Source: Erysipelotrichaceae bacterium (lineage in GTDB: Bacteria > Bacillota_I > Bacilli_A > Erysipelotrichales > Erysipelotrichaceae). Taken from it: DNA of 64,000 nt. Position 1 is the stretch's first letter. Every line of letters begins with the position of its first letter. Below, piece by piece: positions 21,593 to 48,349 of this stretch. Location of the stretch: the NCBI GenBank assembly GCA_017404785.1, contig JAFRBQ010000009.1, positions 1 to 64,000 on the forward strand, in the 5' to 3' direction. Both the position numbers and the translations under genes were made by a program. The notes under the pieces were generated by a model. It was given only the letters and a program-made list of their open reading frames with translations, was not told the DNA's origin and did no database searches.

Positions 21593-21668
21593 GGACACTT
21601 AGCTCAGTTGGGAGAGCACCTCCTTGACGTGGAGGGGGTCAGGGGTTCGAGTCCCTTAGTGTCCACCA
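21593..21668 (+). tRNA. tRNA-Val (anticodon GAC), integration target
   Basis: Complete 76-nt cloverleaf: acceptor GGACACT/AGTGTCC, anticodon stem CCTCC/GGAGG with loop TTGACGT (anticodon GAC), CCA encoded. It follows tRNA-Ala by five bases in one transcript. Its last 13 bases plus one more T recur twice downstream, marking it as the attachment site of the mobile region. Confidence 0.95.
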
Positions 21669-29610: not shown

Positions 29611-30531
29611 ATGGTAACAGACATTAATAAGGATCTAGAGGAGATTAATGACTTAGGTTTGCTAGATAGGCTCCTCAAGGACAAAACAACCAACGAAAAT
29701 ATCATCTGGGGAACAGATGCTTATTGTGGTTTAGGAGTAGGCTTCGGAAGAACCGATCCTATCACAGCAAATCTGCTTATTGGTCCTAATGCTTTTGTGA
29801 TTCGAAATCGTGCATCAAAAGAATCAGATGATCAATCTGACCGTACTCGCCAACACGCTGAAGTGTTTACTCCATTCTGGATTGTTAATAGGATGAATAA
29901 CTTTGCTGATGAAGTATGGTTTGGATATAAAAATGTATTTAATACAGACGGGATTCCCACGATGAATATAGAATTCCCTGAAGAGAAAACATGGGAATCT
30001 TATGTTGATTCCGATAGACTCGAAATAACCTGTGGAGAAGCACCGTTTTTAGTTAGCAGATACGATGTTGAATCAGGAGATATTATTCCTGTTAAGCAAA
30101 GGATTGGCATCCTGGATAGAAAGCTTCGTGTTGTTAACGAAAACGCAGATACAGAAGATGCTTGGCTTGAGTGGACGATTAAAGCTTTCCAATCCACATA
30201 TGGGTATGAGTTTCAAGGAGACAGTCTTCTGATAGCAAGAATCAATTTGCTCATGACATTTAAGGACTACATGCTTGAAAAATGGCATAGGGTTCCTACA
30301 ATTGAAGAATTTCGGAAAATAGTAAATATCATTTCTTGGAATATATGGCAGATGGATGGTTTAACAGGAACGATTCCATACTCAGCGATTCAAGAAGATA
30401 ACGAACAACTAACATTTGATTTATTTGCAGATGCAGAGGAAGTGAAGGAAGAGAAAAAACCGGGATGCCGAATATTTGATTGGCATAGTAATAATAGCAT
30501 TGAGTTCAGCACACTAAAAAGGAGGTACTGA
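29611..30531 (+). CDS. DNA adenine methyltransferase, SAM-binding half (split MTase subunit)
   Basis: The 306-residue product has the motif X-like AEVFTPFWIVNRMNN (about 85) and a motif I-like LEITCGEAPFLVSRYD (about 138), the order seen in Eco57I/type IIG gamma-class N6-adenine methyltransferases. The NPPY motif is not here but in the next gene, four bases downstream, so SAM binding and catalysis are on separate chains. The start has only a weak AGAG site and a -10 box 14 bases upstream. It opens the cargo operon. Confidence 0.75.
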   Translation: MVTDINKDLEEINDLGLLDRLLKDKTTNENIIWGTDAYCGLGVGFGRTDPITANLLIGPNAFVIRNRASKESDDQSDRTRQHAEVFTPFWIVNRMNNFADEVWFGYKNVFNTDGIPTMNIEFPEEKTWESYVDSDRLEITCGEAPFLVSRYDVESGDIIPVKQRIGILDRKLRVVNENADTEDAWLEWTIKAFQSTYGYEFQGDSLLIARINLLMTFKDYMLEKWHRVPTIEEFRKIVNIISWNIWQMDGLTGTIPYSAIQEDNEQLTFDLFADAEEVKEEKKPGCRIFDWHSNNSIEFSTLKRRY

Positions 30532-30534
30532 TCT

Positions 30535-31591
30535 ATGAAATTTGATTTTATTATAGGTAATCCGCCTTATCAAGAAGAAACCGAAGGCACATCTGATAAG
30601 CCGATTTACAATGATTTTATGGATGCATCTTATCAATTGTCAGATAAAGTTGAACTAATATCTCCTGCTTCCTGCTAGATTTTTGTTTGACGCTGGCAAA
30701 ACACCAAAAGCGTGGAATGAAAAGATGCTCAATGATCCACATCTAAAAGTTCTTTACTACGAACAAGATAGCAGTAAGGTATTTGGGAATACAGATATTA
30801 AGGGTGGAGTAGCAATTACATATAGGGATGCAAAAGAGAATTATGGAGCAATAGAAGTCTTTACATCATTTTCTGAACTAAACGATATAAGAGAAAAAGT
30901 TATTCATAGAAAAGATTTCCTATCATTCAGTGATCTTATTTTCGCTCCCGAAAGCTATAGGTTTAGTAATAAACTACACGAGGATTATCCAGATATAAAA
31001 TATAGAGAAGAAAAAGGAGTCAATAAAGGTGTTTTCAGTAAGGGACACGATAACGATGTTGTAACAAATGTCTTTGAAAAGATACCTTATCTTTTCAAAG
31101 ATAACAAACCAAATGGAGATGATTATGTTGGATTTATCGGATTGATTGATAATAAAAGGTATATAAAATGGATTGAAAGAAAGTATATTAGAGATCACGA
31201 TAATCTGGAAAAGTATAAAATCATTCTTCCAAAATCAAATGGATCAGGTGCGATTGGCGAAGTATTATCAACACCCCTGATCGGGGAACCCCTGATCGGT
31301 CATACACAGTCTTTTATTAGTATTGGGTCTTTTGATACAAAAGAAGAAGCTGAAAATGTTATGAAATATATTAAAACAAAGTTTGCAAGAACTATGTTGG
31401 GTATATTAAAAATAACTCAAGATAACCAAAAATCTACATGGCGTTTTGGTCCTATTCAAAACTTTACTTCAACTTCTGATATTGACTGGTCAAAGTCAGT
31501 ATCAGAAGTTGATCAGCAGCTTTATAAAAAATATGGCCTTGATGAAAAGGAGATTGAGTTTATTGAATCTCATGTAAAGGAGATGGAATAA
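30535..31591 (+). pseudogene. DNA adenine methyltransferase, catalytic half, frameshifted by a 7-bp duplication
   Basis: From ATG 30535 (AGGAGG upstream) the frame reads MKFDFIIGNPPYQEE, with the NPPY catalytic motif IV, and stops at 30676. The homologous protein resumes in another frame as RFLFDAGKTPKAWNEKM and runs to 31591. At the break, TCCTGCT is tandemly duplicated (30663-30669 and 30670-30676). Removing one copy joins ISPA to RFLF and restores an intact protein of about 349 residues. The downstream part has target-recognition character. The duplication could be a switchable off-state or a fixed lesion. Confidence 0.85.
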
Positions 31592-31592
31592 C

Positions 31593-34500
31593 ATGCCAGT
31601 AATTAAGTCCTTTACAAAGATTAGCCCAATGATTTATGCATATAACACCCCTGGGGTTACTTATCATGATGGTTGGACAAAGATCGGTTATACAGAAAAA
31701 CAAACTGTTAAAGAAAGAATAGAGCAGCAAACTCATACCGCCGGCATCCAATACAAGATTTCCTGGATGGATAATGCTTTATACAAAGATGGAACTGGCG
31801 ATCGTTTTACTGATCACGAGTTCCACTCCTACCTTGAAACGAACAAAAAAGTCGAGAGAGAAAAAGGCACTGAATGGTTTAAAACGTCAGGTCAGGAATC
31901 AAAACAATACTTTGATTCTTTTGCTATGAGACTAGACGATGAAGATGTTAATCATTCGAATTATGTTTTGAGATCGGAACAAGTCAGAGCTGTTCAGGAA
32001 ACTAAAGACTATTTCGAAACCGGTGGAAAAGAATTCCTTTGGAATGCGAAACCTCGCTTTGGTAAGACGCTAACCTCCTATGACCTTATCAGGCAGATGA
32101 ATTTCAAAAACGTCTTGATCGTAACTAATAGACCTTCAATCGCTAACTCATGGGTTGACGATTTCAATGAGTTTATCAGTTGGCAGACAGATTATATCTT
32201 TATTGCACAGACAGATAGTATAGCGAACAAGCCTGGTGTTGTATCCAGAGACGAATATACAAAAATGATGATCGATGCTGCAACCAAGGGAAAAGAGCTT
32301 GGTATGATAGCTTTTGTTTCTTTGCAAGACTTAAAGGGATCCGCTTTCTTTGGAGGAAAGTTTGATAAACTGCAGTGGATCAATACGATCAATTTCGATC
32401 TGATGATCGTCGATGAATCACAGGAAGGTGTATCAACAGCAAAAACCGAAAGAGCGTTTGATAATATCCACAGAGACCACACTCTGTATTTATCCGGTAC
32501 TCCATTTAAGCAATTAGCTAGTGATCAATTTACAAAGCAGCAGATATTTAACTGGTCATATGCTGATGAACAGGAAGCTAAAAAGAACTGGAATTCCGAT
32601 AGCACAAATCCATATGAGGTTTTACCGACATTATCGATGTTCACCTATCAGCTTTCCAATATGATCTATGAGAAGATGTTAAAAGCATCTGACATGACAA
32701 AGGATAGCGAAGCAGTTGATTTTGCTTTTGATCTGAATGAATTCTTTGCCACAAACGAAGCTGGAAGATTCATTCATGAAGAAGAGATAAAGAAGTTTTT
32801 AAAAACGTTATCTACAAATGAAAAGTATCCATTCTCAACACCTGAACTGAGAAAAGAAATGTCACATACGCTTTGGCTGCTTAATAGGATTGCAAGTGCT
32901 AGAGCTTTAGCAAAGTTGTTACAGAATGATCCGGTATTCTCTGAGTATGAGATTGTTCTGGCAGCAGGCGATGGAAAGATCGATGACGTTGATGCGATTG
33001 AAAAATCTTTTGACAAAGTTAAGAAGGCAATCGCTGAAAATAACAAGACGATCACCTTAAGTGTTGGCCAATTGACAGTCGGTGTTACGATTCCTGAATG
33101 GAGCGGTGTTTTGATGCTGTGTAATCTGCAAAGCGCATCTTCTTATATGCAGGCAGCATTCAGAGCTCAGAATCCTTATGCTTATGATGAAAACGGTACA
33201 TATTATCGCAAAGAGAACGCTTATCTTTATGATTTCGATCCAGCAAGAACACTGATCATATTTGATGAGTACGCAAACAACCTTACCGCTGATACTGCTG
33301 GTGGCAGAGGAACAACAGAGGATAGAAAGAACAATATAACCAGATTGCTTAATTTCTTCCCGGTAATCGGCGAAGACGATGAAGGAAAGATGGTTGAACT
33401 GGATGCACAACAAGTGCTTTCTATTCCAAGAAAGATCAAGTCTCAGGATGTTGTTCGTAAGGGATTTATGTCGAACTTCCTGTTTGCAAATATCTCTAAT
33501 ATATTTGGTGCCCCGAATGTTGTTACAAATATTCTTAAAAAGATCGCTCCAGCTCACGAAGAAGGAACCAAAAAGGACGACAAAACAGATGCAGCTTCAA
33601 AGATAAGTTTGGATAACAATGGCGAAGTTGAAGTTTCTGAAGAATTTGTTGTTGGTAAATCCAAGAAGATATTCGGAGAGAAGATCTATGAAAAGCTTGA
33701 GAACAAAGTTGATAAGAATCTACCTTCCGTAAGTGACAGCATCAATACTTCCTCACAAACAAAACAAGTCGATAAACTGGTTGAAGATATCACAAAATCG
33801 ATTTCCAACACAATAAAGGAACAGGTTGTGCTTCCTGCTTTTGATGAATACGATCCTAAGAAGAGTGTCAAGAACCGTATTGAAAAAGAAGTAGAAACAG
33901 AAGTAAACAACAAGATGAGCAAGATCGGTGAGGATTATAAACAAACTATCAATATTGCTCAAGTTGAACACAACCGAAGGATCAACGAAGCAGAGACACA
34001 AGCCGAGATAAAGCAAGCTGATGAAGAATTATCAAAGAAAATGAATGAAGCTATATCTGCCTTCCAAACCGGAATACAAGACATAACAAAGGAAATCATT
34101 CAGAGCAAGCCAGAAGAAATTGTTTTGAAACTGGAAAAGAGTAAGAAAGAAGAGGAGAAAAAATCTGTTGAAGATTCCATTCGTGACCATTTAAGAGGTT
34201 TCTCCAGAACGATTCCTAGTTTTGTCATGGCTTATGGTGATGAAAATCTCACACTGGCTAATTTTGATGACTACACAGAAGACGATGTTTTCCGTGAGGT
34301 TACCAGTATTACTGAAGAAGAATTCAGATTCCTTAGAGATGGCGGAGATATTGTCAATCCAAAAACCGGGGAAACAGAACATTTCGATGGTCATTTGTTC
34401 GATGAGACGGTATTCAATGATTCGATCAAGGAATTCTTGCGTATCAAAAAGAAGCTGGCAAATTATTTCGATGAGTCTCAAGAAGAAGATATCTTTGACT

Positions 34501-34913
34501 ATATTCCGCCTCAGAAAACCAATCAGATTTATACTCCAAGATGGGTTGTAAAGATGATGATTGATAAACTTGAGAACGAAAATCCTGGGTGCTTCGATGA
34601 TCCGGATAAAACATTTGCAGATCTATATATGAAATCAGGTCTATATATAACTGAGATTGTAAAAAAACTATACAATAGCGAAGCAATAAAAACCGCGTAT
34701 CCAGACGATAAAGAAAGGCTCAGACATATCTTTACTAAACAGGTATATGGTATGGCTCCAACAAGAATAATTTATCTGATTGCAACTAATTATATACTTG
34801 GATTTGATGAGAATCTTAAACTTGAAACCAGCAACTTTGTTGAAGCCGATGCTGCAGAAGCATCAAAAAAAGGCAAACTTGATAAGCTGGTTAATAAGTA
34901 TTTCAAGTCATAG
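31593..34913 (+). CDS. GIY-YIG nuclease / SF2 helicase restriction subunit
   Basis: A 1106-residue protein. Residues about 10-95 form a T5orf172/GIY-YIG-like nuclease domain (MIYAYNTPG...WTKIGYT...VKERIEQ). A superfamily 2 helicase follows: Walker A KPRFGKTLTSYD (about 150), motif II VDESQEG, motif III LSGTPFKQ and a C-terminal RecA lobe to about 620. A long charged coiled coil (about 690-870) leads to a terminal methyltransferase-like segment (IYTPRWVVKMMIDKLE...FADLYMKSGLYITEIV), which ends where an NPPY module would normally begin. It sits two bases after the broken methyltransferase gene. Confidence 0.82.
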   Translation: MPVIKSFTKISPMIYAYNTPGVTYHDGWTKIGYTEKQTVKERIEQQTHTAGIQYKISWMDNALYKDGTGDRFTDHEFHSYLETNKKVEREKGTEWFKTSGQESKQYFDSFAMRLDDEDVNHSNYVLRSEQVRAVQETKDYFETGGKEFLWNAKPRFGKTLTSYDLIRQMNFKNVLIVTNRPSIANSWVDDFNEFISWQTDYIFIAQTDSIANKPGVVSRDEYTKMMIDAATKGKELGMIAFVSLQDLKGSAFFGGKFDKLQWINTINFDLMIVDESQEGVSTAKTERAFDNIHRDHTLYLSGTPFKQLASDQFTKQQIFNWSYADEQEAKKNWNSDSTNPYEVLPTLSMFTYQLSNMIYEKMLKASDMTKDSEAVDFAFDLNEFFATNEAGRFIHEEEIKKFLKTLSTNEKYPFSTPELRKEMSHTLWLLNRIASARALAKLLQNDPVFSEYEIVLAAGDGKIDDVDAIEKSFDKVKKAIAENNKTITLSVGQLTVGVTIPEWSGVLMLCNLQSASSYMQAAFRAQNPYAYDENGTYYRKENAYLYDFDPARTLIIFDEYANNLTADTAGGRGTTEDRKNNITRLLNFFPVIGEDDEGKMVELDAQQVLSIPRKIKSQDVVRKGFMSNFLFANISNIFGAPNVVTNILKKIAPAHEEGTKKDDKTDAASKISLDNNGEVEVSEEFVVGKSKKIFGEKIYEKLENKVDKNLPSVSDSINTSSQTKQVDKLVEDITKSISNTIKEQVVLPAFDEYDPKKSVKNRIEKEVETEVNNKMSKIGEDYKQTINIAQVEHNRRINEAETQAEIKQADEELSKKMNEAISAFQTGIQDITKEIIQSKPEEIVLKLEKSKKEEEKKSVEDSIRDHLRGFSRTIPSFVMAYGDENLTLANFDDYTEDDVFREVTSITEEEFRFLRDGGDIVNPKTGETEHFDGHLFDETVFNDSIKEFLRIKKKLANYFDESQEEDIFDYIPPQKTNQIYTPRWVVKMMIDKLENENPGCFDDPDKTFADLYMKSGLYITEIVKKLYNSEAIKTAYPDDKERLRHIFTKQVYGMAPTRIIYLIATNYILGFDENLKLETSNFVEADAAEASKKGKLDKLVNKYFKS

Positions 34914-34921
34914 TATCATAG

Positions 34922-34980
34922 AAAAGTGGTAAATATTGAAAAATATTATGAAAATATTATTGATATATTACCACTTTTTT
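34922..34980 (+). terminator. Large hairpin / terminator after the helicase gene
   Basis: AAAAGTGGTAA (34922-34932) and TTACCACTTTT (34968-34978) form a perfect 11-bp stem around an AT-rich loop with repeated AATATT, followed by T. TTGATA lies inside the loop at a distance that could serve as the -35 for the next gene. Confidence 0.6.
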
Positions 34981-34994
34981 GATACTCTTTAGGT

Positions 34995-35219
34995 ATGGAA
35001 AACAAGAAGAACAATTTCAAAAGGGTTGCCGAAAATAGAACAAACAAGATCATCAATATGATTTCTTTGCTGGGCAATCTTGATAATACTTCCTTCTATG
35101 AATATACGGATGAAGAGGTAGAAGCGATTTTTAGTGCTATCCAGACGGAGCTGGACAAGCAGCATGAAAAGCTCATTAAAAAGAATAATAATGGGAAGAA
35201 AAAGAGGTTTGAATTATGA
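34995..35219 (+). CDS. Small 74-aa charged protein, first gene of the second cargo operon
   Basis: A lysine/asparagine-rich helical protein (NNFKRVAENRTNKIINMISLLGNLDNTSFYEYTDEEVEAIFSAI...). This resembles the small ribosome-site-poor leader genes often found before sigma-like or restriction genes, but no family is certain. It overlaps the start of the 935-aa gene by four bases (ATGA), which argues that it is real and coupled to it. Confidence 0.6.
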   Translation: MENKKNNFKRVAENRTNKIINMISLLGNLDNTSFYEYTDEEVEAIFSAIQTELDKQHEKLIKKNNNGKKKRFEL

Positions 35220-38023
35220 TGGGCAATCTCTTTTTTAAGCTTACTAACTCATCAGAAAAGTATACTGAAGAGCATTTGAGTTCATTGATCGAAGAAATAC
35301 TGGATAAGAATTCTGATGTTACTCCAGAATATCTGATCGGATGCATTCGGCCATATTATCCAAATGTAGCTATCAATTATAGCGCTTTCTGCGAATTTGT
35401 TTCTGAAAAGTATGGAATCAGCAAACAGAAGAAAAGCAGGATCAATTATTTTTTCAAATTGCAGAATACAGCAAAAGAATATACTGAGAAAGCACTTATC
35501 GAAAAAATAGACTCTCTTCTTCAGGATTCACCAAAATCCGTTGAAGAGATTATTGAGATGCTTGATGATATGTATTCCTGTAATATTAATCATTCAGCAA
35601 TTAAGCAACTTATCAAAAGAAATTACTCAGTAGTAAACAAGCTGGTTCTTCCTGTAAAACAGGATAGATCAGACGATAGCAAAACCGCCAATATCGAAAT
35701 AGCTAAAAAAACCGGTAATGATTTTGATAACATGCTTAAAAAAATGGAATATTTATCTGTTATCGGCAGTAATGTGCTAAGAAACAACGAAGATCTTTTC
35801 AGACAGTTGTACAATACTATCAATCAAGATGAATATAAAATAATGGATGCCGTTCTTCTTGTTATGTCCATAGTGAAAAAACAGGAGTTATTAGATCTTG
35901 ATTCCTGCGTTGATGTGTGCATTGATATAAACAACAATGTTGATTACTACACAAATGTTTTGTCAGAGTCTGTAAACAGAATTGATAAAAGCAATTCAGA
36001 TCTAAGTTGTTCAACTTACATCAACAATACATTCATTCTGCAATTACTTGGTACACAAGATATCAAAACCGTGGGAAATATAATCAACTCAAGAATAGAT
36101 AACCTGATTGTATCCTTTTCCCCTGATCTTCCAGGATGTATTAAAGCGATTGATGCAATATCCGAGTCAATAACTGCTCTTACTGTAGACGCCATCCAAA
36201 AAGTCTTTTATGAAGCATTTGATGAAAGAACATTAGAAATCCTTTACAGAAGAAACGGATTTTTAACTGGTGAAAGCGAAACTTTGGAGGCACTTGGAAG
36301 TCGTTATGGTCTTACCAAAGAAAGAGTGAGACAGGTCGAAAGCAAAGGTAATCAGAGAATAAAACTATTTTCAAAGTCTTTAGAGCAATCCGTAAAGATG
36401 TTTTTCAGGATGCACATAAATGAAAAAGGATTCTCGTATAAAAAACTTAATGAACTATGTGACGAAGTTGGAGATCCTTCCCTCGTATACAATATTTGCT
36501 TACTCTTACATCATATGGACATCAACTATAAATACAATCATCATTACTGTTTGGTTTTTGATGCCGATATTATAGAGATCAGCGACATTGAAAAAGCAGT
36601 AGAAGACAAATATGGGAAGCTGATGACACAAAAACAATACAACAGCGCTACAGACCTTGAGAAAGAAATAATAGAAAGTATCTATTCAGTCTGCGGTAAG
36701 GATCGCAATATGTACAGACTGAAGAAGTTCAACAGAACAAGTTATCTTGTTGATCTGATAGCAGAACTGTTTTCGAAAGGATATGGCTTATACAGTGATG
36801 ATGATTATGACAGACTAATTACCGAGTATAAAAATCGTTTAGGTGAAGAGGTTGATATTCCTTCAAAACCTGCTGTAAGAGGCCTTTTGGGTAGAGATAT
36901 TTTCTGTCTTTATGATAGAGGAAAATACATGCTTAGAAACGAATGTGGAGAGATACCAATAGAGATCCTGGAAAGAATGATTGAATTTATACGCGATCAT
37001 TTACCTATGGTAGATTACGATTCAATATATACGACTTTTGAAGATGAATTAAATGATATTGGTATCAACAACAAATATCACATGAAAGGATTATTGGATC
37101 CGTTGCTCCCTGAAGATCTAACCACAAGAAGAGATTACATTACTGCAGCAGAAAACCAGATTTCAGCTACCGAAGCAAGAAAACAGTATATGAGGAGCTT
37201 TGAGGGCCCATTTACCCTGAATGATCTTTTGAAAAAGTATCCGGGTGTAAAACCATATGTTTTCAGTTTTCTGTTATATGAAGAAGCTAAAAACGGTTTA
37301 ATCCAGATCGATGTTCAGAAATATATTTATTCAAATCGTATAACAGTAACAGAGAAACAAAAAGAAAAACTTAAAGAGATAATTGAGAATCTATTTGAAA
37401 TAAATAAGACCAGGATATTATCATCACGAAAAATCTATGCAAAACTGAGAATATCCTATCCTGAACTTCTTGAAGAAATGGATGTTGTTACAAATCAATA
37501 CGCTATGTTCTCTGTCGTAAAATATGTACTTGGAAATGATTATTATTTTGATAGACCATATATATCTAAAGATGCATTCGATGAAAAAGGAATTACAACA
37601 AAAGGTTTAATAGTCAATTACTTAAGATCCTACGATACGATCGACTATGATTTATACAAGAATTATTGCTTGAAGATGAATATCCCGTTCATGTATACAT
37701 TCATGAGTCTGGTTGATGAACTGCAGGATGAGTATGTTCAACTTGATGGTAGAAGAATGACACGCAAAAGCGAATTGAATTTACCCGATAAAACAATAAA
37801 TGAAATTAGGCAGATCATAGAAATGATATTTGGTCGTACTGCCGAAATCAATACAGCAACTTTCACCGGATATGCATTGTTACCACAAATAAAATATCAG
37901 TGGAATAAACATGTATTCGCCGGAATTGTTAGGAGTTACTTAAGTGATATATGCGAGGTTGAAAACATAACGAGAGGAGCTTTGTCAGAAGCGGTAGACT
38001 ACAAAATCAGGAGGTACGAATAA
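35216..38023 (+). CDS. Large protein with sigma-70 region-4-like helix-turn-helix
   Basis: A 935-residue protein. Two N-terminal repeats start FFKLTNSSEKYTEEHL and FFKLQNTAKEYTEKAL (about 4 and 80). At about 330-390 it contains TLEALGSRYGLTKERVRQVESKGNQRIK, the exact style of sigma-70 region 4, where the second helix reads the -35 element. The remaining 550 residues look like repeated winged-helix units (LEILERMIEFIRDHLP..., FTLNDLLKKYPGVKPYVF...). No enzymatic motif is visible. The operon context (GHKL ATPase next, one-base overlap) suggests a DNA-sensing or targeting subunit. Confidence 0.7.
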   Translation: MMGNLFFKLTNSSEKYTEEHLSSLIEEILDKNSDVTPEYLIGCIRPYYPNVAINYSAFCEFVSEKYGISKQKKSRINYFFKLQNTAKEYTEKALIEKIDSLLQDSPKSVEEIIEMLDDMYSCNINHSAIKQLIKRNYSVVNKLVLPVKQDRSDDSKTANIEIAKKTGNDFDNMLKKMEYLSVIGSNVLRNNEDLFRQLYNTINQDEYKIMDAVLLVMSIVKKQELLDLDSCVDVCIDINNNVDYYTNVLSESVNRIDKSNSDLSCSTYINNTFILQLLGTQDIKTVGNIINSRIDNLIVSFSPDLPGCIKAIDAISESITALTVDAIQKVFYEAFDERTLEILYRRNGFLTGESETLEALGSRYGLTKERVRQVESKGNQRIKLFSKSLEQSVKMFFRMHINEKGFSYKKLNELCDEVGDPSLVYNICLLLHHMDINYKYNHHYCLVFDADIIEISDIEKAVEDKYGKLMTQKQYNSATDLEKEIIESIYSVCGKDRNMYRLKKFNRTSYLVDLIAELFSKGYGLYSDDDYDRLITEYKNRLGEEVDIPSKPAVRGLLGRDIFCLYDRGKYMLRNECGEIPIEILERMIEFIRDHLPMVDYDSIYTTFEDELNDIGINNKYHMKGLLDPLLPEDLTTRRDYITAAENQISATEARKQYMRSFEGPFTLNDLLKKYPGVKPYVFSFLLYEEAKNGLIQIDVQKYIYSNRITVTEKQKEKLKEIIENLFEINKTRILSSRKIYAKLRISYPELLEEMDVVTNQYAMFSVVKYVLGNDYYFDRPYISKDAFDEKGITTKGLIVNYLRSYDTIDYDLYKNYCLKMNIPFMYTFMSLVDELQDEYVQLDGRRMTRKSELNLPDKTINEIRQIIEMIFGRTAEINTATFTGYALLPQIKYQWNKHVFAGIVRSYLSDICEVENITRGALSEAVDYKIRRYE

Positions 38024-39942
38024 TGGAAGACATTAGATGGAGATTCCCAGGCAACAATTACACTGCGGATAATGGATTAGATACCGCAGATATGGAAACC
38101 TTCAAAAAGGATGCTATTTCCTCTTTGGCGAGAGAAGTTTGTCAAAACTCAATAGATGCAAAGAATAATGATGTTGAAGGACCGGTACTTTTGGAATTCC
38201 ATTCTTTTGAAGTTGACAGAAACAACATCCCTGATATAGACGATATTGATAAACAGATTGATGCGTGTATTGATACTTGGAGCCTGAACGCTAAAATTAA
38301 AAAGCAGTTGACAGTAATGTCTGACCAGATTAAAAAAGACAAGATCGTTTGCCTTCGTATCAGTGATTTTAATACCACTGGATTGGTTGGCGTATATGGA
38401 GGAGACAATACACCGTGGCATTATTTGGTTCATGGTTCGGGTCTTTCTGATAAAAGTGCAACAAGCGGCGGATCCAAAGGTATTGGTAAGTTTGCCACTT
38501 TTGTAACTTCTCACTTCAATTCCGTTTTTTATTCGACAAGAACAATAAAGAATGAATCAGGATACGAAGGCATATGTAAGCTCTGCTCAGCCAAACAGGA
38601 AGGTACAACTGAAAAAACGCAAGGCATCGGTTATTTTGGAAGCAACGATATGAACGAACCTATACAAGGCGAATTCGTGTTGGATCCAGATTTCAATAGA
38701 TCAGAAAACGATTATGGCAGCGATATTTTTATCGTTGGTTTCAAATCACCTGATGGATGGAAGAGAGATATTATTTCAAAAATCCTGGATAGCTTTATGG
38801 CTGCGATAGTATTTAATTCTCTGAGAATCGATGTCGATGGTATAGAAATAAATTCTGAAACATTGAAAGATGTTGTGTTCAACGATCTTTATATCAACAA
38901 AAACATGAAAAAGAGCATTGTCTCCCAGTATATGCTTTTGACCGATACTGAACACAGATATGAAGATGTTATAACCGTTCAAGAGTATGGGAATGCTCGT
39001 TTATATCTGATGGAATTCTCAGGTGAAGATGAACAATACGCAACAAACAACTGCGTAATGATTCGATATCCTTATATGAAAATCAAGGAATTGAATAGGA
39101 TATCTTCTCTTCCTTGTAGTGCGCTCTGCATTATTGAAAACAATCAGTTAAACACAATACTCAGAAATGTTGAGAATCCGCAGCATACCAACTGGGAATT
39201 CAATAGAATTGAAGACCCTTCTGAAAAAGCCGAAGTACAAGCTATTTATAAAGATCTGCTTGATCAGATCAGAGACAATATTACAAGACACCTGGCAAGT
39301 AGTGATGATACAAAAACCGATTTAGAAGGTGCAGGTGAATACTTGCCTATCACGGAAAACGATGACAAAAAGAGCAAAAATGAAGGCCAGAAAAAGATCA
39401 TCGATAAACCAAATATACGCAAAAATAAAGTTAAAGCAAAAAATATCAACATGAACGCATCAATCGAAGATCCAAATGGAAATGGTGTCGAAGTTGACTT
39501 CTTGAATGCAAATGACGAAGGCGAAGAAGAACAGGTAGTTCCTTCTGGAAACAATAAAGGTGGTGGAGGATCATTACATGGCGATAATGAAGAACATGGT
39601 GACCCAGATCCAAACGGCCATATCGGATTAAGGCACGCCGAATTAAGAGGAATGTCATATTTGTTCTATTGCAAAAATAAAAAGAATAGAGAATATGGCG
39701 TATCATTCTCTTCTGATTTTGATGAAGATGAAGCATATTTTGAACTGTACGCAGTTGATGATGCTGGCGGAAAGGATCAGGTTAATTTTGAAAGATGCTT
39801 CATAAATGAAATACCTGTAGAACCAATAAACGAAAGCATAATCAAGTTAAAACTTCAAAAAGGCCAAAGATACAATATTCTAATGGTTACCGATCAGGAA
39901 GACTTATTCAGTGGGGAGGTTAAGGTATATGCGTATAGGTAA
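38023..39942 (+). CDS. GHKL-fold ATPase (MutL/MORC/Hsp90-like)
   Basis: A 639-residue ATPase. The Bergerat fold motifs are clear: N box LAREVCQNSIDAKN (about 34), G1 box CLRISDFNTTGLVGVYGG (about 110) and G2 box GGSKGIGKFATF (about 148). There is no histidine-kinase phosphoacceptor, so it belongs with the MutL/MORC-type ATPases that occur in restriction neighbourhoods. A linker rich in Asn, Gly and Glu (about 430-545) joins a C-terminal domain. TAATG overlap links it to the preceding gene. Confidence 0.78.
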   Translation: MEDIRWRFPGNNYTADNGLDTADMETFKKDAISSLAREVCQNSIDAKNNDVEGPVLLEFHSFEVDRNNIPDIDDIDKQIDACIDTWSLNAKIKKQLTVMSDQIKKDKIVCLRISDFNTTGLVGVYGGDNTPWHYLVHGSGLSDKSATSGGSKGIGKFATFVTSHFNSVFYSTRTIKNESGYEGICKLCSAKQEGTTEKTQGIGYFGSNDMNEPIQGEFVLDPDFNRSENDYGSDIFIVGFKSPDGWKRDIISKILDSFMAAIVFNSLRIDVDGIEINSETLKDVVFNDLYINKNMKKSIVSQYMLLTDTEHRYEDVITVQEYGNARLYLMEFSGEDEQYATNNCVMIRYPYMKIKELNRISSLPCSALCIIENNQLNTILRNVENPQHTNWEFNRIEDPSEKAEVQAIYKDLLDQIRDNITRHLASSDDTKTDLEGAGEYLPITENDDKKSKNEGQKKIIDKPNIRKNKVKAKNINMNASIEDPNGNGVEVDFLNANDEGEEEQVVPSGNNKGGGGSLHGDNEEHGDPDPNGHIGLRHAELRGMSYLFYCKNKKNREYGVSFSSDFDEDEAYFELYAVDDAGGKDQVNFERCFINEIPVEPINESIIKLKLQKGQRYNILMVTDQEDLFSGEVKVYAYR

Positions 39943-40837
39943 AAGATTATTTCCATATCCTGTACTTAATAGTGAGAAGGTCTATTCTCAATACAAGGAG
40001 AGCAGCTTTTCGCTTTCTTATGAAGATGGCATATCTGAAGATAAGCAGTTTTACGAACTGAATAATCTACATTGTGACATAGATAGCGAATTGCTAATAA
40101 GGCTTATAAAAGACGATAAAGCAGAGATCATTTGTGTTATCGAATGCCCAAGTACAATGTTTCGGCGGAAGTATGTTCTCCCGTTGGAAGGAATGGATCT
40201 TGCAATTCCTTTGACTGATCTGAACAATAAAGTCAATGTTTCGGCGTTCGTTGCAGCAAAGGAAGAAATAAATGATTATCAGTCTGATGATTTCTTGAAC
40301 GGTTACGAAGATATCTCATTTACGATTGAAAAGCACGATATCCTGGCAGCTGATGACGGTTTTGTAAATACTATCGACTTTGATGATTTTGAAGATAATA
40401 AGCAAAAATCAATTTTCCTTGTAATAAAGGACAAGAATATCACGGATGGCACGATGCGAGTCGAATATGATTCTGATAAGATCACCATATGTCTTCCGGA
40501 GAAAGAATGGAATGAATACGATAAGACAAAGCGTATCTCCAAATTCGAAAGTCTGTATTTTTCTGTTATAGCAATTCCGGCTTTGGGATATGCACTATCC
40601 TGTTTGCAGAGGAATGATCCGTCTGTTGATATTCTCAAAATAGATTACAGATGGTTCAATTCTTTCGCTGCAGCATACAAGAATTATCATGGTGAAGAGC
40701 TGACCGATGATGTTTTTATCAAGATGAATACCAACTTGGAATCTCAAATGGTATTGAACAATCCTGTTACAAAAGCTGTAGATCAGATATTTGGATTTAC
40801 AATCGGATTAAACGGAGGTGATGATAGTGTTGATTAA
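39929..40837 (+). CDS. Hypothetical 302-aa cargo protein
   Basis: No known domain is recognised. The protein has a beta-rich N-terminal half (YPVLNSEKVYSQYKESSFSLSYEDG..., IICVIECPSTMFRRKYVLP) and a helical C-terminal part. ATG 39929 is preferred over the GTG at 39911 because GGAGGTTAAGG then lies in front of it; it overlaps the GHKL gene by 14 bases. It is tightly coupled to its neighbours, so it is probably a core subunit of the same complex. Confidence 0.65.
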   Translation: MRIGKRLFPYPVLNSEKVYSQYKESSFSLSYEDGISEDKQFYELNNLHCDIDSELLIRLIKDDKAEIICVIECPSTMFRRKYVLPLEGMDLAIPLTDLNNKVNVSAFVAAKEEINDYQSDDFLNGYEDISFTIEKHDILAADDGFVNTIDFDDFEDNKQKSIFLVIKDKNITDGTMRVEYDSDKITICLPEKEWNEYDKTKRISKFESLYFSVIAIPALGYALSCLQRNDPSVDILKIDYRWFNSFAAAYKNYHGEELTDDVFIKMNTNLESQMVLNNPVTKAVDQIFGFTIGLNGGDDSVD

Positions 40838-41573
40838 TATCAAGATGATGACCGAAGAAGCATATAAAACCCTTCAGAAGAATTATAAGGAAGTATATGA
40901 AAACATCATTAACCACCCTTCTGATTCCACCTGGTTAGAATCTTTTTTGGGTTTTGAGCCTTATGAAGAAAAGAAATACACTATTGAAGACTTTGAATTA
41001 GCTGATGACGTTGATTATGGCGAGGTTGCTTATAATAACGGTATCATTCTATATGATCATCTGAATGAACTTCCACGATACATTCTTTGCAATAGTAGAT
41101 TTTGGGCATGGATAACTTTTGAAAAAGCATATAAACAAGCTCAACATAGTATAAAGATTACCAGCGCACAGATTATTAGAAAATGGTGGCTTGGCAATGA
41201 CACAAAAAGGTCATTGATGCTCGGTGTAGTTTCTAGGTCGTTTTTTAGAATTATGGTTTCAGTAGATGAAAAGGGTAATGAAAAATATAAGTATTGCAGA
41301 AGATTGTTTGAAGGAATACAGAATTATGAAATATACAGATTTTTCGTTGATAGAAGCATGGGATTGATACCAGAAGTTTCAAAAGGGTTTATAAAATCTA
41401 TTATTGAATGTGAAGAAACTTACGGGAAAGATATAATCGATCAAAAGCTTATTCGTGAAATTGTAAAAGACGCTAGAAAAATAGGAAGTGTTATGTTAGT
41501 TGATACTATGGGAGAAGATGAAATAAATCTAATACTGATGGACAAGATTAAAAGAAGGTTGTCAAATGGATAA
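40827..41573 (+). CDS. DUF6339-like protein
   Basis: A 248-residue protein with NNGIILYDHLNELPRYILCNSRFWAWITFEKAYKQA, which matches the DUF6339 style (a short helix, then a LW/FWA motif and a helical C-terminus ending in an IGSVMLVDTMGEDEI motif). Function unknown; it is linked to restriction-type operons. GTG 40827 is chosen because GGAGG (40814-40818) is eight bases upstream; the ATG at 40821 is too close. It overlaps the preceding gene by 11 bases. A degraded paralogue lies inverted at 48430-48733. Confidence 0.62.
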   Translation: MLINIKMMTEEAYKTLQKNYKEVYENIINHPSDSTWLESFLGFEPYEEKKYTIEDFELADDVDYGEVAYNNGIILYDHLNELPRYILCNSRFWAWITFEKAYKQAQHSIKITSAQIIRKWWLGNDTKRSLMLGVVSRSFFRIMVSVDEKGNEKYKYCRRLFEGIQNYEIYRFFVDRSMGLIPEVSKGFIKSIIECEETYGKDIIDQKLIREIVKDARKIGSVMLVDTMGEDEINLILMDKIKRRLSNG

Positions 41574-41601
41574 ATTGAATGAACTGTAGGAGATTGGAAT
41601 A

Positions 41602-42006
41602 ATGAAACGTGACATGGAATTGTGTAGGAAAATACTATTTGCAATTGAAAAACAGTATATCGATGCTTCAATTTACAATCTTAAAATTGAAGGGTATTCG
41701 CCGAAAGAAGTATCATACAACTCGGGTTTATTATATGAAGCAGGTTTAATTTCGGCATACAAATCACAAAACGCAGATGATCATTTATATTCTTTTGCCG
41801 TCGGACATTTAACATGGGAAGGTCACGATTTTTTAGATAAAATTCGGGAAGATACAATCTGGAATAAAACCAAATCAATAATCAAAGGTAAAGTGCTTCC
41901 TATGACTTTAGATATCATCAAGGAAGTCGCCTCTGCAATAATTTCTGCAGCTGTTCAGGGAGCAGTAAAAGGTATCGCTTCGAGTAACATAGAAATTACT
42001 GAATAG
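41602..42006 (+). CDS. DUF2513-like protein
   Basis: The 134-residue protein starts MKRDMELCRKILFAIE and has the winged-helix segment SYNSGLLYEAGLISAYKSQ and LTWEGHDFLDKIR, typical of DUF2513, a DNA-binding-like family found in phages and islands. Its C-terminus (IIKEVASAIISAAVQGAVKGIAS) is an alanine/glycine-rich helix that could be membrane active. AGGAGA precedes it. It ends the second cargo operon. A truncated paralogue lies at 48074-48349. Confidence 0.75.
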   Translation: MKRDMELCRKILFAIEKQYIDASIYNLKIEGYSPKEVSYNSGLLYEAGLISAYKSQNADDHLYSFAVGHLTWEGHDFLDKIREDTIWNKTKSIIKGKVLPMTLDIIKEVASAIISAAVQGAVKGIASSNIEITE

Positions 42007-42051: not shown

Positions 42052-43782
42052 ATGCCTACTAAGCCAAAACAAGTGATCGGAGAAAATACGATTCTTATGA
42101 AAGAATGGGATTACGAGAAGAATGACACTCTATCTCTTGATCCGTTTTCTTTAGGTATTAGCAGTCACACCAGAGCATGGTGGAAATGTAACGAAGGCCA
42201 TTCCTGGTATTCTTCTATTAGCAACCGAACCAGAAAAGGACATATGAATGGATGCCCATATTGTGCTCACCAATTGCTTATTCCTGGTGAAACCGATCTG
42301 GAAACATTATATCCGGAACTTGCAAAGCAATGGCATCCAACCAAGAACAAATTAAAACCTTCAGAAGTGATGCCAGGAACTCATAAAAAGGCATGGTGGA
42401 TCTGTGACAAAGGACATGAGTGGGAAGCTCAGATTAAATCTCGTGTAACAGGCGTTAGCTGTCCTTATTGTTCAAACAAGAAAGTATTATATGGCTTCAA
42501 TGACCTCGCAACAATTAACCCGGATCTTGCCAAGGAGTGGCACCCTACAAAAAACGGTGATCTCACTCCTTCAGACGTCACTCCATCAAGTGGAAAAAAG
42601 GTATGGTGGAAATGTTCTTTTGGACACGAATGGGAGGCGCAAATATGTAACAGAAATGCAGGACGTGGATGTCCAGAATGCTCCGATTCCCTTAGAACAT
42701 CCTTCCCTGAACAAGCTATTTTTTATTACATCAAACAGGTTTTTCCAGATGCAATAAGTTCATATAAAGATATTTTCAAATCTTCAATGGAACTGGATAT
42801 TTACATCCCTACAATAAAAGTTGGAATAGAATATGACGGAAAAACATATCATTCGGATTCAAAGAATCAGATCCGTGATGCAAAGAAATATAAAATCTGC
42901 AAAGAGAACGGAATCATTCTGATTCGAATAAGAGAAATGTCAAGATATACACCGATCACAATGTGCGATCACAAAATCGAAATACCAGATGCGAGTGATA
43001 AATACTTGAACTGGGCAATTAACAAGCTCTGCTATCATCTTGGCAAAAATGTGGTACCAGATGTTCGCAGAGATCGCAATGAGATACTTAGTTATTTGAA
43101 TAATAAGAAGGTGTCTTTAGCATCTGAATTCCCTGAAATTGCAGCGGAATGGGATTATAAGGAAAACTATCCGTTGATTCCTGAAAACTTCCCGCCACAT
43201 TCAAATGAAAGGGTTGGATGGAAATGTAAAGACTGCGGGCACAAATGGAAAGCCGCAATCGGAGATAGAACTGGTGAAGATAAAAACGGTTGCCCGGTAT
43301 GTGCTAAAAAACGTGGGGGAGCGAAGCGAGTTCGCAGTCTAGTAAAAAAGAACGGCAGTTTGGCATCGCTATATCCAGAACTTCTGGAAGAATGGGATTT
43401 TGAAAAGAATAGTAAAATTGGATTAGACCCATATTCTATAACTCCTGGAAGTGGTAAAAAAGCCAATTGGATATGTAAGAAATGTGAATACTCTTGGAGT
43501 ACAACAATTAATCATAGAATTCATGGAAGAGGGTGCCCATATTGTGCAGGCAAGGCAGTTGTTACAGGAAAAAACGATTTAGCAATACTTAAACCTGATT
43601 TGATGAAGGAATGGGATTACGAAAAGAATAATATGTTAGGGCTAGATCCAAAAAAACTCCCTGTTCGAACCGCTAAAAAAGCATATTGGATTTGTTCTGT
43701 ATGTGGGAATAGATGGAAAGCGTCTATTTGTTCTAGATCGGCAGGAAGTGGATGCCCATATTATAGATACCACGATAAATAG
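42052..43782 (+). CDS. Putative endonuclease with six zinc-ribbon repeats
   Basis: A 576-residue protein built as three treble-clef/zinc-ribbon repeats, a Vsr-like nuclease domain (about 225-330: FPEQAIFYYIKQVF, then ELDIYIPTIKVGIEYDGKTYH with the Glu/Asp metal residues, IILIRIRE) and three more repeats. Each repeat has the style LAKEWHPTKN...KKxWWxCxxGHEWEA...GCPYC. The last repeat ends GCPYY, so one metal ligand is lost. This arrangement matches the DUF4379-like zinc-ribbon families seen beside Vsr-type nucleases. No ribosome site is present; TATAAA lies 12 bases before ATG. Confidence 0.75.
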   Translation: MPTKPKQVIGENTILMKEWDYEKNDTLSLDPFSLGISSHTRAWWKCNEGHSWYSSISNRTRKGHMNGCPYCAHQLLIPGETDLETLYPELAKQWHPTKNKLKPSEVMPGTHKKAWWICDKGHEWEAQIKSRVTGVSCPYCSNKKVLYGFNDLATINPDLAKEWHPTKNGDLTPSDVTPSSGKKVWWKCSFGHEWEAQICNRNAGRGCPECSDSLRTSFPEQAIFYYIKQVFPDAISSYKDIFKSSMELDIYIPTIKVGIEYDGKTYHSDSKNQIRDAKKYKICKENGIILIRIREMSRYTPITMCDHKIEIPDASDKYLNWAINKLCYHLGKNVVPDVRRDRNEILSYLNNKKVSLASEFPEIAAEWDYKENYPLIPENFPPHSNERVGWKCKDCGHKWKAAIGDRTGEDKNGCPVCAKKRGGAKRVRSLVKKNGSLASLYPELLEEWDFEKNSKIGLDPYSITPGSGKKANWICKKCEYSWSTTINHRIHGRGCPYCAGKAVVTGKNDLAILKPDLMKEWDYEKNNMLGLDPKKLPVRTAKKAYWICSVCGNRWKASICSRSAGSGCPYYRYHDK

Positions 43783-43818: not shown

Positions 43819-45993
43819 ATGAAAATAGATTTGCATTGTCATACAAAATGTATTAAAAACGGCGACGAAGGTAGAGAAATATCTGCAGAACACCTTGTCT
43901 CAATATTAAAAGAGTCCAATGTTAAAATCGCCGCAATAACAAATCACAACTCGTTTTGTTTGGAACAGTACCATGAAGCAGTGTCTCTTGCTGGTAACAG
44001 TCTAATAATATGGCCTGGAGTTGAATTGGATGTTAACTCAAATATAGGAAAGAAAAAGAATCACGGACATGTTATTGTTGTTGTTTCACCAGATAAAGCT
44101 AAGCTATTTGATCAAAAAATAAAAGAATTATGCAAAGGGGATTTAAACAAAGTTGCTGTCGACATAAAAGATCTAATCAACCTAATAAATCAATTAGAAA
44201 AGTGTTTTGTAGCATGTCATTATAAAAAAACACCATCTTTAAATATGGAAGATGTGGTTTACTTAGAAAAACATATAACAAGTGAAAATGCTGTTGTTTT
44301 AGAACCGTCTGATATTCGTAGAGCAGGAATAATACTTAATGGCGATCAAAAAAGTGCTTGCTGGTTTGGATCGGATGTTAAAGACTGGAAAAACTATAGT
44401 CCGGACATATTACCAGAACTTATATTCAATATTGAATCTTTTGATACCTTTATTAGGATGATTAATAAACATCCTGATACAGTTTTGCTTAAATCGTATT
44501 TAGATAAAAAAGAACCAATTAATATAACAATTGAACCGTATAATGACCTAAAACTAAATCTTCAAATTTATAAGGATTTTAATGTGATATTTGGAGAAAA
44601 GGCCACTGGGAAAACCGATATTTTGCATGAAATCGAAAAAGAATTGACCAAAGCTCATCTTAAAGTTTCTTCTTTCTATGTTGAACAAAAATCTGAAGAT
44701 TTTATAAAAATTGTTGATCACGTTCCATCCAATGAGGAAATAGATTTACTGGGCAGTAATTTTTGCGAATCCGAGATAAAAGATCTTTCTGTTGATTTAG
44801 CTAACAAAATAACATCTTTGATAGAATATAAGAGTTATTTCGAGTACGCAAGGAAACGATCGCAAATTGAACATTTACAGATTTCAAAAGCGAGATTTAA
44901 TAATAATATATCTTCAATTGAAATCAATAACAACAAAAAACAGTTGGACGACGAACTTAAAAGCATCTCAACTGTATTAAATATCGATTCTTATAACGTA
45001 TTGAATAAAACTGAGGCAAGTTATTTAGAAAATCTGCTAATTAAACTACGGCAAGAATTGATAAAAAGGTTTATAAACCAATGGATCGAATTTGAAGCTT
45101 TAAAACTCGAAAAGTTTAGTATTGATAATATTAAAAACAAGCTTGCTCTAAAACAAGGTGTGCCAGTCAGGCCAAATGGTACGGGGTTGCTGAATGTTTT
45201 TAATGATTATTTAAGGATTATGATAGATACTGAAAAGATAATTAAAGCATCACAAAACCAAATCGAATTGCCAAAACAAATCCTTGGGAAATTGCCTACT
45301 AAAGGAATAATACAAAGAGCAACATATATAGGCGTTCTTGACCAACGTTCATCAAAAAACAATAAATGGACAAAAAGAAATTATATTTATGGAAAAACCC
45401 AAAAAGATTTTAAAGACTTTATGGGGCATGTAAGGAGAATAAGAGATAATGCATTGACTAATATGTTGTCTAAAGCAATACCTGACTTTAAACGATTTGT
45501 ATATGAAAAAAACATTCACTCTTTGAAAGATTTTGTTAATTACTCAAATATTCTTCTAACAGATTTTTCTGATGATTATAAACCATCGAATGGAGAACAA
45601 TCTATTTTACTAGTTCAACATGTTCTAATGGATCAAGAATGTGATGCTATCATTCTAGATGAAGCAGAAAGCGGTATGGGAGCGGATTATGTCAATGATG
45701 TGCTGTTACCTGAAATGAAAAGAAAAACAAATGAACATAAAATAATAGTTATTGTTACACACGATCCAAATGTTGTTGTTAGATCATCTCCATATTTAAG
45801 TATCTTTCGGGAAGAAGCAGGACCAGGCTCATATAAAACTTACATAGGGAATAGTTTTGAAGAATATATGATAAATGTTGATGATGAAAACGACAAGATA
45901 TCTTGGAGTGAAGCATGTTTAAAAATATGTGAAGGAGGGCATGCGGCTTTTATAGAAAGAGGATTAACATATGGAGAATACAACAAATATTAA
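43819..45993 (+). CDS. PHP-domain / SMC-type ATPase (Ppl-like)
   Basis: A 724-residue protein. Residues 1-250 are a PHP phosphoesterase (KIDLHCHTKCI, AITNHNSF, GVELDV, HVIVVVS). From about 250 an ATPase starts with Walker A FGEKATGKTDIL. A helical coiled-coil middle part follows, and the C-terminus has signature SNGEQSILL, Walker B DAIILDEAESGMG and switch His VTHDPNVVV. This PHP plus SMC/ABC pairing matches the phage-defence protein called Ppl. AAGGGGAT precedes the start; a 105-aa gene overlaps its 3' end. Confidence 0.8.
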   Translation: MKIDLHCHTKCIKNGDEGREISAEHLVSILKESNVKIAAITNHNSFCLEQYHEAVSLAGNSLIIWPGVELDVNSNIGKKKNHGHVIVVVSPDKAKLFDQKIKELCKGDLNKVAVDIKDLINLINQLEKCFVACHYKKTPSLNMEDVVYLEKHITSENAVVLEPSDIRRAGIILNGDQKSACWFGSDVKDWKNYSPDILPELIFNIESFDTFIRMINKHPDTVLLKSYLDKKEPINITIEPYNDLKLNLQIYKDFNVIFGEKATGKTDILHEIEKELTKAHLKVSSFYVEQKSEDFIKIVDHVPSNEEIDLLGSNFCESEIKDLSVDLANKITSLIEYKSYFEYARKRSQIEHLQISKARFNNNISSIEINNNKKQLDDELKSISTVLNIDSYNVLNKTEASYLENLLIKLRQELIKRFINQWIEFEALKLEKFSIDNIKNKLALKQGVPVRPNGTGLLNVFNDYLRIMIDTEKIIKASQNQIELPKQILGKLPTKGIIQRATYIGVLDQRSSKNNKWTKRNYIYGKTQKDFKDFMGHVRRIRDNALTNMLSKAIPDFKRFVYEKNIHSLKDFVNYSNILLTDFSDDYKPSNGEQSILLVQHVLMDQECDAIILDEAESGMGADYVNDVLLPEMKRKTNEHKIIVIVTHDPNVVVRSSPYLSIFREEAGPGSYKTYIGNSFEEYMINVDDENDKISWSEACLKICEGGHAAFIERGLTYGEYNKY

Positions 45994-46288
45994 AGTAGAC
46001 CTTAGAATGAATGATAACAAAGAAGTTCTTTATTGTCGGATAGATGACAATGACTACTTTTTAGACTTCACTAACGAAAATCAAGATTATTTAAGAAGTT
46101 TTTTCAATTTAATCATCCACAAACTTAAATACGAAAAAATACAATTCGTTTTTGATGAGGATAATTCATCTATAAAAAACGAAATGCTTATATCTGTTAG
46201 TAAAGAATATATAAATGATTTAAATACAGAAATTGAATTAGTGTACCATAATTTAAAAAACATGTTAGTGGAATATTCGATGAAATAA
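45971..46288 (+). CDS. Small 105-aa partner of the PHP-ATPase
   Basis: An Asp/Asn-rich, acidic alpha/beta protein of no recognised family. It overlaps the PHP-ATPase gene by 23 bases, so it is translationally coupled and likely a partner, inhibitor or regulator of it. It is the last gene of module 1 before the right end repeats. Confidence 0.6.
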   Translation: MENTTNIKVDLRMNDNKEVLYCRIDDNDYFLDFTNENQDYLRSFFNLIIHKLKYEKIQFVFDEDNSSIKNEMLISVSKEYINDLNTEIELVYHNLKNMLVEYSMK

Positions 46289-48073: not shown

Positions 48074-48349
48074 TTAAAATCGGAAAATATTAGCGGCTTT
48101 ACTGATACGAGAACACAAGAAATCGTGGCCTTCCCATGTTAAATGCCCGACGGCAAATGCATACAATCGATTATCTGCGTTTTTTGATTTATAATCCGCT
48201 ATTAAACCAGCTTCATATAACAAACCAGAGTTATATGATACTTCTTCTGGAGAATATCCTTTAATCTGTAGGTTATATATTGCAGAATCAACATATTGTT
48301 CTTCAATTGCAAAAAGGATTTTTCTGCATAATTCCATGTCACGTTTCAT
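48074..48349 (-). pseudogene. Truncated DUF2513 paralogue
   Basis: The 91-residue frame (AGGAGAC upstream) runs parallel to the DUF2513-like gene of module 1 (MKRDMELCRKILFAIEEQYVDSAIYNLQIKGYSPEEVSYNSG...) with high identity through LTWEGHDFL, then diverges abruptly to CSRISKAANIFRF. Its C-terminal helix is therefore missing; the break lies at the end of the LTA-type gene. It may still make a truncated protein. Confidence 0.75.

Follow-up and report, generated by a model that had tools for sequence, protein, structure and literature searches.

What does a putative GHKL-type ATPase do in the cargo of a mobile element, directly behind restriction-modification (R-M) genes? The question is raised by a locus in a 64,000-nucleotide stretch of an Erysipelotrichaceae-like genome (assembly GCA_017404785.1, incomplete at 76%; contig JAFRBQ010000009.1, our contig C22), hereafter the window. 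Two plus-strand gene clusters lie side by side there: an R-M cluster (M1, M2, and R) and a second cluster of genes that we call s74, sig, A, B, and C. We read s74-(sig)-A-B-C as a putative R-M-coupled defense module related to the known PDC-M33/paraMORC2 kind of system. On balance, we consider it probable that this module discriminates self from non-self DNA together with a linked DNA methyltransferase, an association that is observed and a mechanism that we infer. New are the methyltransferase linkage, the partnership with R-M systems of any type, the s74 and sig components, and a C5 methyltransferase that carries an insert.

All of the open reading frames (ORFs) named in a preliminary description of this DNA were found on the plus strand where it had placed them. 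The second cluster begins with s74 (34995..35219), encoding a small conserved protein of 74 amino acids (aa), followed by sig (35216..38023; 935 aa), A (38023..39942; 639 aa), B (39929..40837; 302 aa), and C (40818 or 40827 to 41573; 251 or 248 aa). The close packing noted earlier is real, with overlaps of 4 bases between s74 and sig, 1 between sig and A, and 14 between A and B; the Met at 39929 that gives the 302-aa form of B is conserved in 100% of 87 homologs. A, B, and C match, as adjacent genes in the same order and over nearly their full lengths, the PADLOC models PDC-M33A (1.9e-139), PDC-M33B (4.4e-61), and PDC-M33C (4.2e-26), and the DUF6339 label previously given to C is correct (Pfam, 5.1e-19). 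The view that this gene set belongs to no named system is wrong in part, since the PADLOC library, which lists known and candidate systems, includes A, B, and C as candidate PDC-M33. The likeness covers only part of the locus, however: s74, the large DNA-binding protein, and the methyltransferase of the window match none of the PDC-M33 models. A literature search that left recent preprints and most subscription papers outside its reach found no paper describing PDC-M33, DUF6339, or a GHKL/anti-phage/methyltransferase link, and PDC-M33 may since have been named.

We assign A to the GHKL-type ATPases, as a paraMORC2-like member, from its motifs. Invariant or nearly invariant residues are E38, Q41, N42, and D45 (N motif); D115, T118, and G120 (G1); and G150, S151, G153, G155, and K156 (G2). 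Downstream of the GHKL domain is an ExxxH motif, in which E384 and H388 are conserved in 100% of 91 sequences. The paraMORC2 GHKL family, with its ExxxH signature, was proposed in 2008 as a component of R-M systems (Iyer, Abhiman, and Aravind; PMC2292703), and A carries this signature, a further departure from the view that no named system is involved. GHKL motifs, the downstream ExxxH, a Gram-positive distribution, and R-M neighborhoods are shared; B, DUF6339, s74, and the sigma region 4 protein do not figure in the description of the family in the accessible part of that article, and A is likened to paraMORC2 by motif. AlphaFold models of B suggest an Ig/FnIII-like beta domain with a helical C terminus (pLDDT, 86), and those of C an all-helical protein (pLDDT, 92). 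A hidden nuclease in B or C was considered and rejected, as Foldseek/VIA searches with these models gave weak generic matches with Z below 9. The model of C had no significant match in the PDB; these are single-chain predictions, and a missing structural match for B or C is no proof of a new fold.

The co-occurrence analysis proposed in the preliminary description was carried out on 92 related loci, and the genes do recur together in other genomes. B is present at 89 of these loci, C at 79, s74 at 58, and the large protein at 36 to 39; the order A-B-C is conserved in nearly all, usually with s74 and often with sig. The arrangements are s74-sig-A-B-C, sig-s74-A-B-C, s74-A-B-C-sig, and s74-A-B-C, and s74 normally stands directly upstream of A or of sig-A. 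The earlier suggestion that sig, A, and the DUF6339 protein form a sensor/ATPase complex is a plausible hypothesis. Distribution is patchy: A is present in 13 of the 245 genomes of a phylum sample, and relatives of A were found at 245 candidate places in a species-level collection. The s74 family also occurs away from A-B-C, beside GHKL-like proteins of 735 and 776 aa for which PADLOC has no matching model (L126:1933-4330 and L127:7540-12423); at L127, s74, the GHKL-like protein (GHKL by motif only), a C5 methyltransferase, and an HNH protein are found together.

The product of sig had been described as a sigma-like protein. Region 4 is present (Sigma70_r4 at residues 336-383 only; 2.9e-6), but sig is not a sigma factor, and neither region 2 nor region 3 was detected with Pfam or NCBIfam. 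Among 28 long members of the family, 24 contain Sigma70_r4 and 10 contain the RNA polymerase alpha C-terminal domain (alpha-CTD). A C-terminal part (approximately residues 659-916) is common to members with very different N termini, and at three loci (L019, L054, and L056) one N-terminal domain is encoded as a separate gene. Because only region 4 is found and the N termini are exchangeable, sig is better described, from sequence, as a modular DNA-binding protein. Both s74 and the C-terminal part of sig are recurrent components that no PADLOC, NCBIfam, or Pfam model captures.

The evidence that most directly bears on function is the company that the module keeps. As anticipated from its apparent restriction neighborhood, the core is strongly linked to DNA methyltransferases and R-M systems. 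A DNA methyltransferase was found within 8 kb at 33 of the 43 loci with full flanks (6 kb or more on each side). Control values were 2 of 20 for AbiEii loci (p = 8e-7) and 0 of 20 for random loci (p = 2e-9), as counted with profiles that were built from the case loci, may undercount methyltransferases in the controls, and miss the Eco57I-like enzyme of the window itself. With s74, 27 of 28 loci have a methyltransferase, compared with 6 of 15 without it (p = 7e-5). When A was clustered at 70, 50, and 40% identity, a methyltransferase was present in 23/23, 12/12, and 4/4 s74-bearing clusters, so the link is not due to near relatives. A methyltransferase almost always adjoins the module, which therefore very likely works with systems that discriminate self from foreign DNA.

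These partners are diverse. They include a D12 adenine methyltransferase, alone or with a DUF6997 restriction endonuclease; C5 methyltransferases with a FokI/AlwI-like or NgoFVII-like restriction endonuclease; MmeI-type IIG enzymes; and type III Mod/Res. Plasmid copies are accompanied by AlwI-like or MutH/Sau3AI-like partners or by a IIG enzyme with a helicase and GIY-YIG. At L017, in the genus of the window, an N6/N4-type methyltransferase gene and an 871-aa gene, by our reading Mod and Res of type III, run into s74-sig-A-B-C across gaps of 12 and 16 bp. Given partner R-M systems of types II, IIG, and III, the module is a plug-in that goes with R-M in general and is not tied to a single R-M system. 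At many loci (L038-L041, L060, L064, L072, L076, and L088), the partner methyltransferase has no recognizable restriction endonuclease nearby.

One partner is specific to the module and a second kind of system. In 15 module-linked C5 methyltransferases, an insert of 170 aa, helical-looking by eye, follows the catalytic PCQ region. When only the insert was used as query against 30 whole genomes, 13 of them proved to have exactly one copy, in every case at the module, as comparison of the coordinates with the loci confirmed; in the plasmid collection it matched only two loci, both behind a four-gene set. These are the MZA-type loci L234:1395-10690 (Subdoligranulum) and L235:1369-10251 (Acetoanaerobium), which share their insert-bearing enzyme with PDC-M33 loci. 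At L234 the four genes are MzaB, MzaC, MzaD, and MzaE, with a Vsr gene behind the methyltransferase; the genes at L235 have the same sizes and beginnings. The insert-bearing C5 methyltransferase thus forms a dedicated subfamily, whose members were all found beside either this module or MZA. No restriction endonuclease model matched these proteins of 530 to 555 aa, whose sole strong Pfam match was DNA_methylase, and a hidden nuclease in them was rejected. On a viral contig (L219), s74-A-B-C lies beside an insert-bearing C5 methyltransferase and a Vsr gene. A hybrid locus (L026) reads MzaC, a PDC-M33A-like GHKL gene, B', C', and MzaD, where B' and C' are genes in the positions of B and C. The common C5 methyltransferase, the Vsr neighbors, and the hybrid tie PDC-M33 to the MZA kind of system.

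Related is not identical, however. MZA (MzaABCDE in PADLOC and NCBIfam) likewise places a GHKL ATPase near a sigma-related protein, but the locus in the window lacks the Z1 helicase, DUF4420, and AIPR: the models for MzaB (MORC), MzaC (Z1), MzaD (DUF4420), and MzaE (AIPR) matched nothing in the cluster, and A belongs to another GHKL family than MzaB. The MzaA model spans sigma regions 2-4 and gave a weak region 4 match to sig (1.3e-3). Homology of sig to MzaA was rejected; in each of the 245 genomes the model picks up housekeeping sigma factors by way of regions 2-4 and is therefore unusable as a marker. In hhalign comparisons with Z1-type hybrids, B was not significantly similar to a 314-aa gene and was rejected as its homolog, and the match for C was weak (E, 5e-4; probability, 33%). 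AbiR is a multicomponent abortive infection (Abi) system found with an R-M system on the lactococcal plasmid pKR223. Identity with AbiR was also rejected, as lactococcal relatives are recognized by PDC-M33 models and by no AbiR model; AbiR itself was not directly compared. The HEF_HK/Response_reg_2 pairs similarly place a paraMORC-related ATPase beside C5 methylases but have a two-component-like domain architecture, and DUF6339 is not mentioned in their description (PMC8011034).

The R-M system that precedes the module in the window has a broken methyltransferase. M1 (29611..30531; 306 aa) is the N-terminal half, with motif I, of a type II/IIG-like N6-adenine methyltransferase (PADLOC MTase_II PDLC03390, 5.8e-100) and can be aligned to residues 23-314 of the intact 662-aa enzyme at L192. 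After a single stop codon, M2 (30535..31591) encodes the C-terminal half with NPPY (MTase_II, 6e-28 for 30683-31591). The methyltransferase is split in two pieces, as previously described, but the second gene starts at 30535, with an ATG behind AGGAGG, rather than at 30683, and it is frameshifted; the 302-aa methyltransferase ORF reported earlier is its downstream remnant. The frameshift is an exact 7-bp tandem duplication (TCCTGCT twice, 30663-30676), and R stays open. Because another assembly of the species (L027, with 3 differences over 21.9 kb) carries the identical duplication, the change is probably no random assembly error, and it could reflect decay or phase variation.

R (31593..34913; 1,106 aa) is the restriction subunit (ResIII, 2.5e-11; REase_MTase_IIG, 3.4e-22), and together M1, M2, and R make up a type IIG-like R-M system with a ResIII helicase. 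Homologous two-gene systems of this type in the same genus (L192) and the same family (L193) have one intact methyltransferase of 662 to 678 aa with R adjoining. The architecture of R comprises a GIY-YIG-like N terminus, a superfamily 2 (ResIII) helicase, and a C-terminal remnant methyltransferase segment. The helicase named in the preliminary description is directly evident, but its GIY-YIG assignment stands only through homologs: R of the window matched no GIY-YIG model, and homologs match at the same N-terminal place (MUG113, of the GIY-YIG clan, 1.5e-5 at L193; T5orf172 at L196). That the cluster is an obligate part of the system, as had been implied, is not supported. This particular R-M system adjoins the module only at L027/L028, and in a same-genus genome (G095) its homolog lies on contig C12, a contig other than that of the module.

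How might such a module act? A could form an ATP-gated dimeric clamp as in MutL and MORC, and B and C would be its fixed partners. The s74 protein and the large DNA-binding protein would load the clamp on invading DNA, and the linked methyltransferase would mark host DNA and thereby keep the clamp from acting on it. The invader would then be trapped or blocked, or handed over to a linked endonuclease. No nuclease was recognized in A, B, C, s74, or sig, and any cutting would therefore probably come from the linked R-M enzyme. The mobile-element setting counts in favor of a defense module. Several observations weigh against it. A had no significant match in Pfam or the PDB, HATPase_c_3 reached at best 0.022 in 4 of 46 sequences, and a MutL profile aligned with the A profile at the N-box only (E, 0.042), so the GHKL assignment depends on motifs. 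Some loci (Anaeroplasmataceae and others) have A-B-C without methyltransferase, s74, or sig. Finally, the reading frame of the methyltransferase nearest the module in the window is shifted, whereas those of A-B-C, sig, and R are intact, a state that fits poorly with this enzyme shielding the host from the module.

The defense module would also be of wider interest. Bacterial MORC and paraMORC ATPases are related to the MORC chromatin proteins of eukaryotes, and their mode of action in restriction has been a standing question since the 2008 prediction. This locus family offers a compact set (A-B-C, s74, and a DNA-binding subunit) with exchangeable methyltransferases, some without a visible linked nuclease; these nuclease-less partners offer a way to ask whether unmethylated DNA can be kept out by a GHKL clamp alone. 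The family also defines two parts outside current models, s74 and the sig C-terminal part, and a dedicated C5 methyltransferase subfamily. We tentatively raise a broader possibility: a type-agnostic restriction layer, in which one GHKL clamp module, tethered through s74 and a DNA-reading subunit of exchangeable N terminus (sigma region 4, alpha-CTD, or other), might couple to any DNA methyltransferase, giving nuclease-free, methylation-sensitive exclusion interchangeable with MZA machinery.

The strongest rival explanation is that the module guards R-M, giving a second-tier, possibly abortive response when the linked system fails or a phage blocks it. PrrC and RloC, which are encoded beside type I R-M systems, provide the model. 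Linkage to complete, unrelated R-M types, such as the GIY-YIG system of the window and the type III system of L017 within one genus, fits a guard, as does the existence of R-M without the module in G095. Yet many partners are methyltransferases with no recognizable restriction endonuclease nearby, which often leaves the module without an R-M system to guard, and we regard this explanation as rather unlikely.

Two further explanations seem to us less likely still. The frequency of sigma region 4 and alpha-CTD in the large proteins would suit a regulator that tunes expression of linked R-M genes or DNA topology and is no defense effector. That role is hard to reconcile with a sig protein that, unlike the MzaA model, shows region 4 only, with A-B-C cores that do without sig, and with the heavy machinery of a GHKL ATPase and two fixed partners; we think it improbable. 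We think equally improbable a maintenance role, whereby the module would protect or repair host DNA hurt by the linked restriction enzyme or during loss of methylation. The type-agnostic R-M linkage, the MutL-like motifs of A, and the Vsr-like endonuclease beside one copy (L219) are consistent with it. Against this, the module also accompanies methyltransferases with no visible restriction endonuclease, and its patchy distribution and mobile setting are typical of defense cargo. As a separate observation, no MutL above the family cutoff was found in the 11 genomes searched from the genus of the window, several of them over 93% complete, and mismatch repair may be missing in this genus.

The division of the locus into two operons, proposed earlier, is right for this window. 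The clusters are 81 bp apart, and the gap holds a strong terminator-like hairpin of 77 nucleotides with a T-run (34914..34990, plus strand; -20.5 kcal/mol; z, -5.73), which is kept at L028 and argues for two transcription units. At L017, unlike in the window, R-M and module are joined across a 16-bp gap. Placement of the locus in the cargo of an element is likewise supported: it sits inside a mobilizable element of approximately 24.8 kb, bounded by a putative attachment (att) site, a 14-base repeat TTAGTGTCCACCAT at 21656 and 46476. The copy at 21656 is the 3' end of a tRNA-Val gene, adjoined by an integrase-like gene (21747-22967, judged by inspection of the ORF only), and the element encodes a Mob_Pre relaxase.

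The DUF2513 gene (41602-42006, plus strand) follows C by 28 bp, and its position and family are as first described (Pfam, 2e-30). Its membership in the system is not borne out, and we rejected it as part of the module, since the two are neighbors in this species only. A second DUF2513 gene lies in inverted orientation (41602-41834 and 48117-48349; 82% identical over 233 bp); the putative att sites enclose one copy and not the other. Next within the element is a protein with six treble-clef zinc fingers (DUF4379; 42052-43782) and a weak restriction endonuclease-like stretch (MTES_1575). A PHP/TrlF-like ATPase of 724 aa and a 105-aa gene (43819-46288) follow and are probably a separate two-gene defense unit. 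A relative of the 724-aa protein occurs near the module at L049, and a like pair (791 and 106 aa) lies behind a related R-M system at L196.

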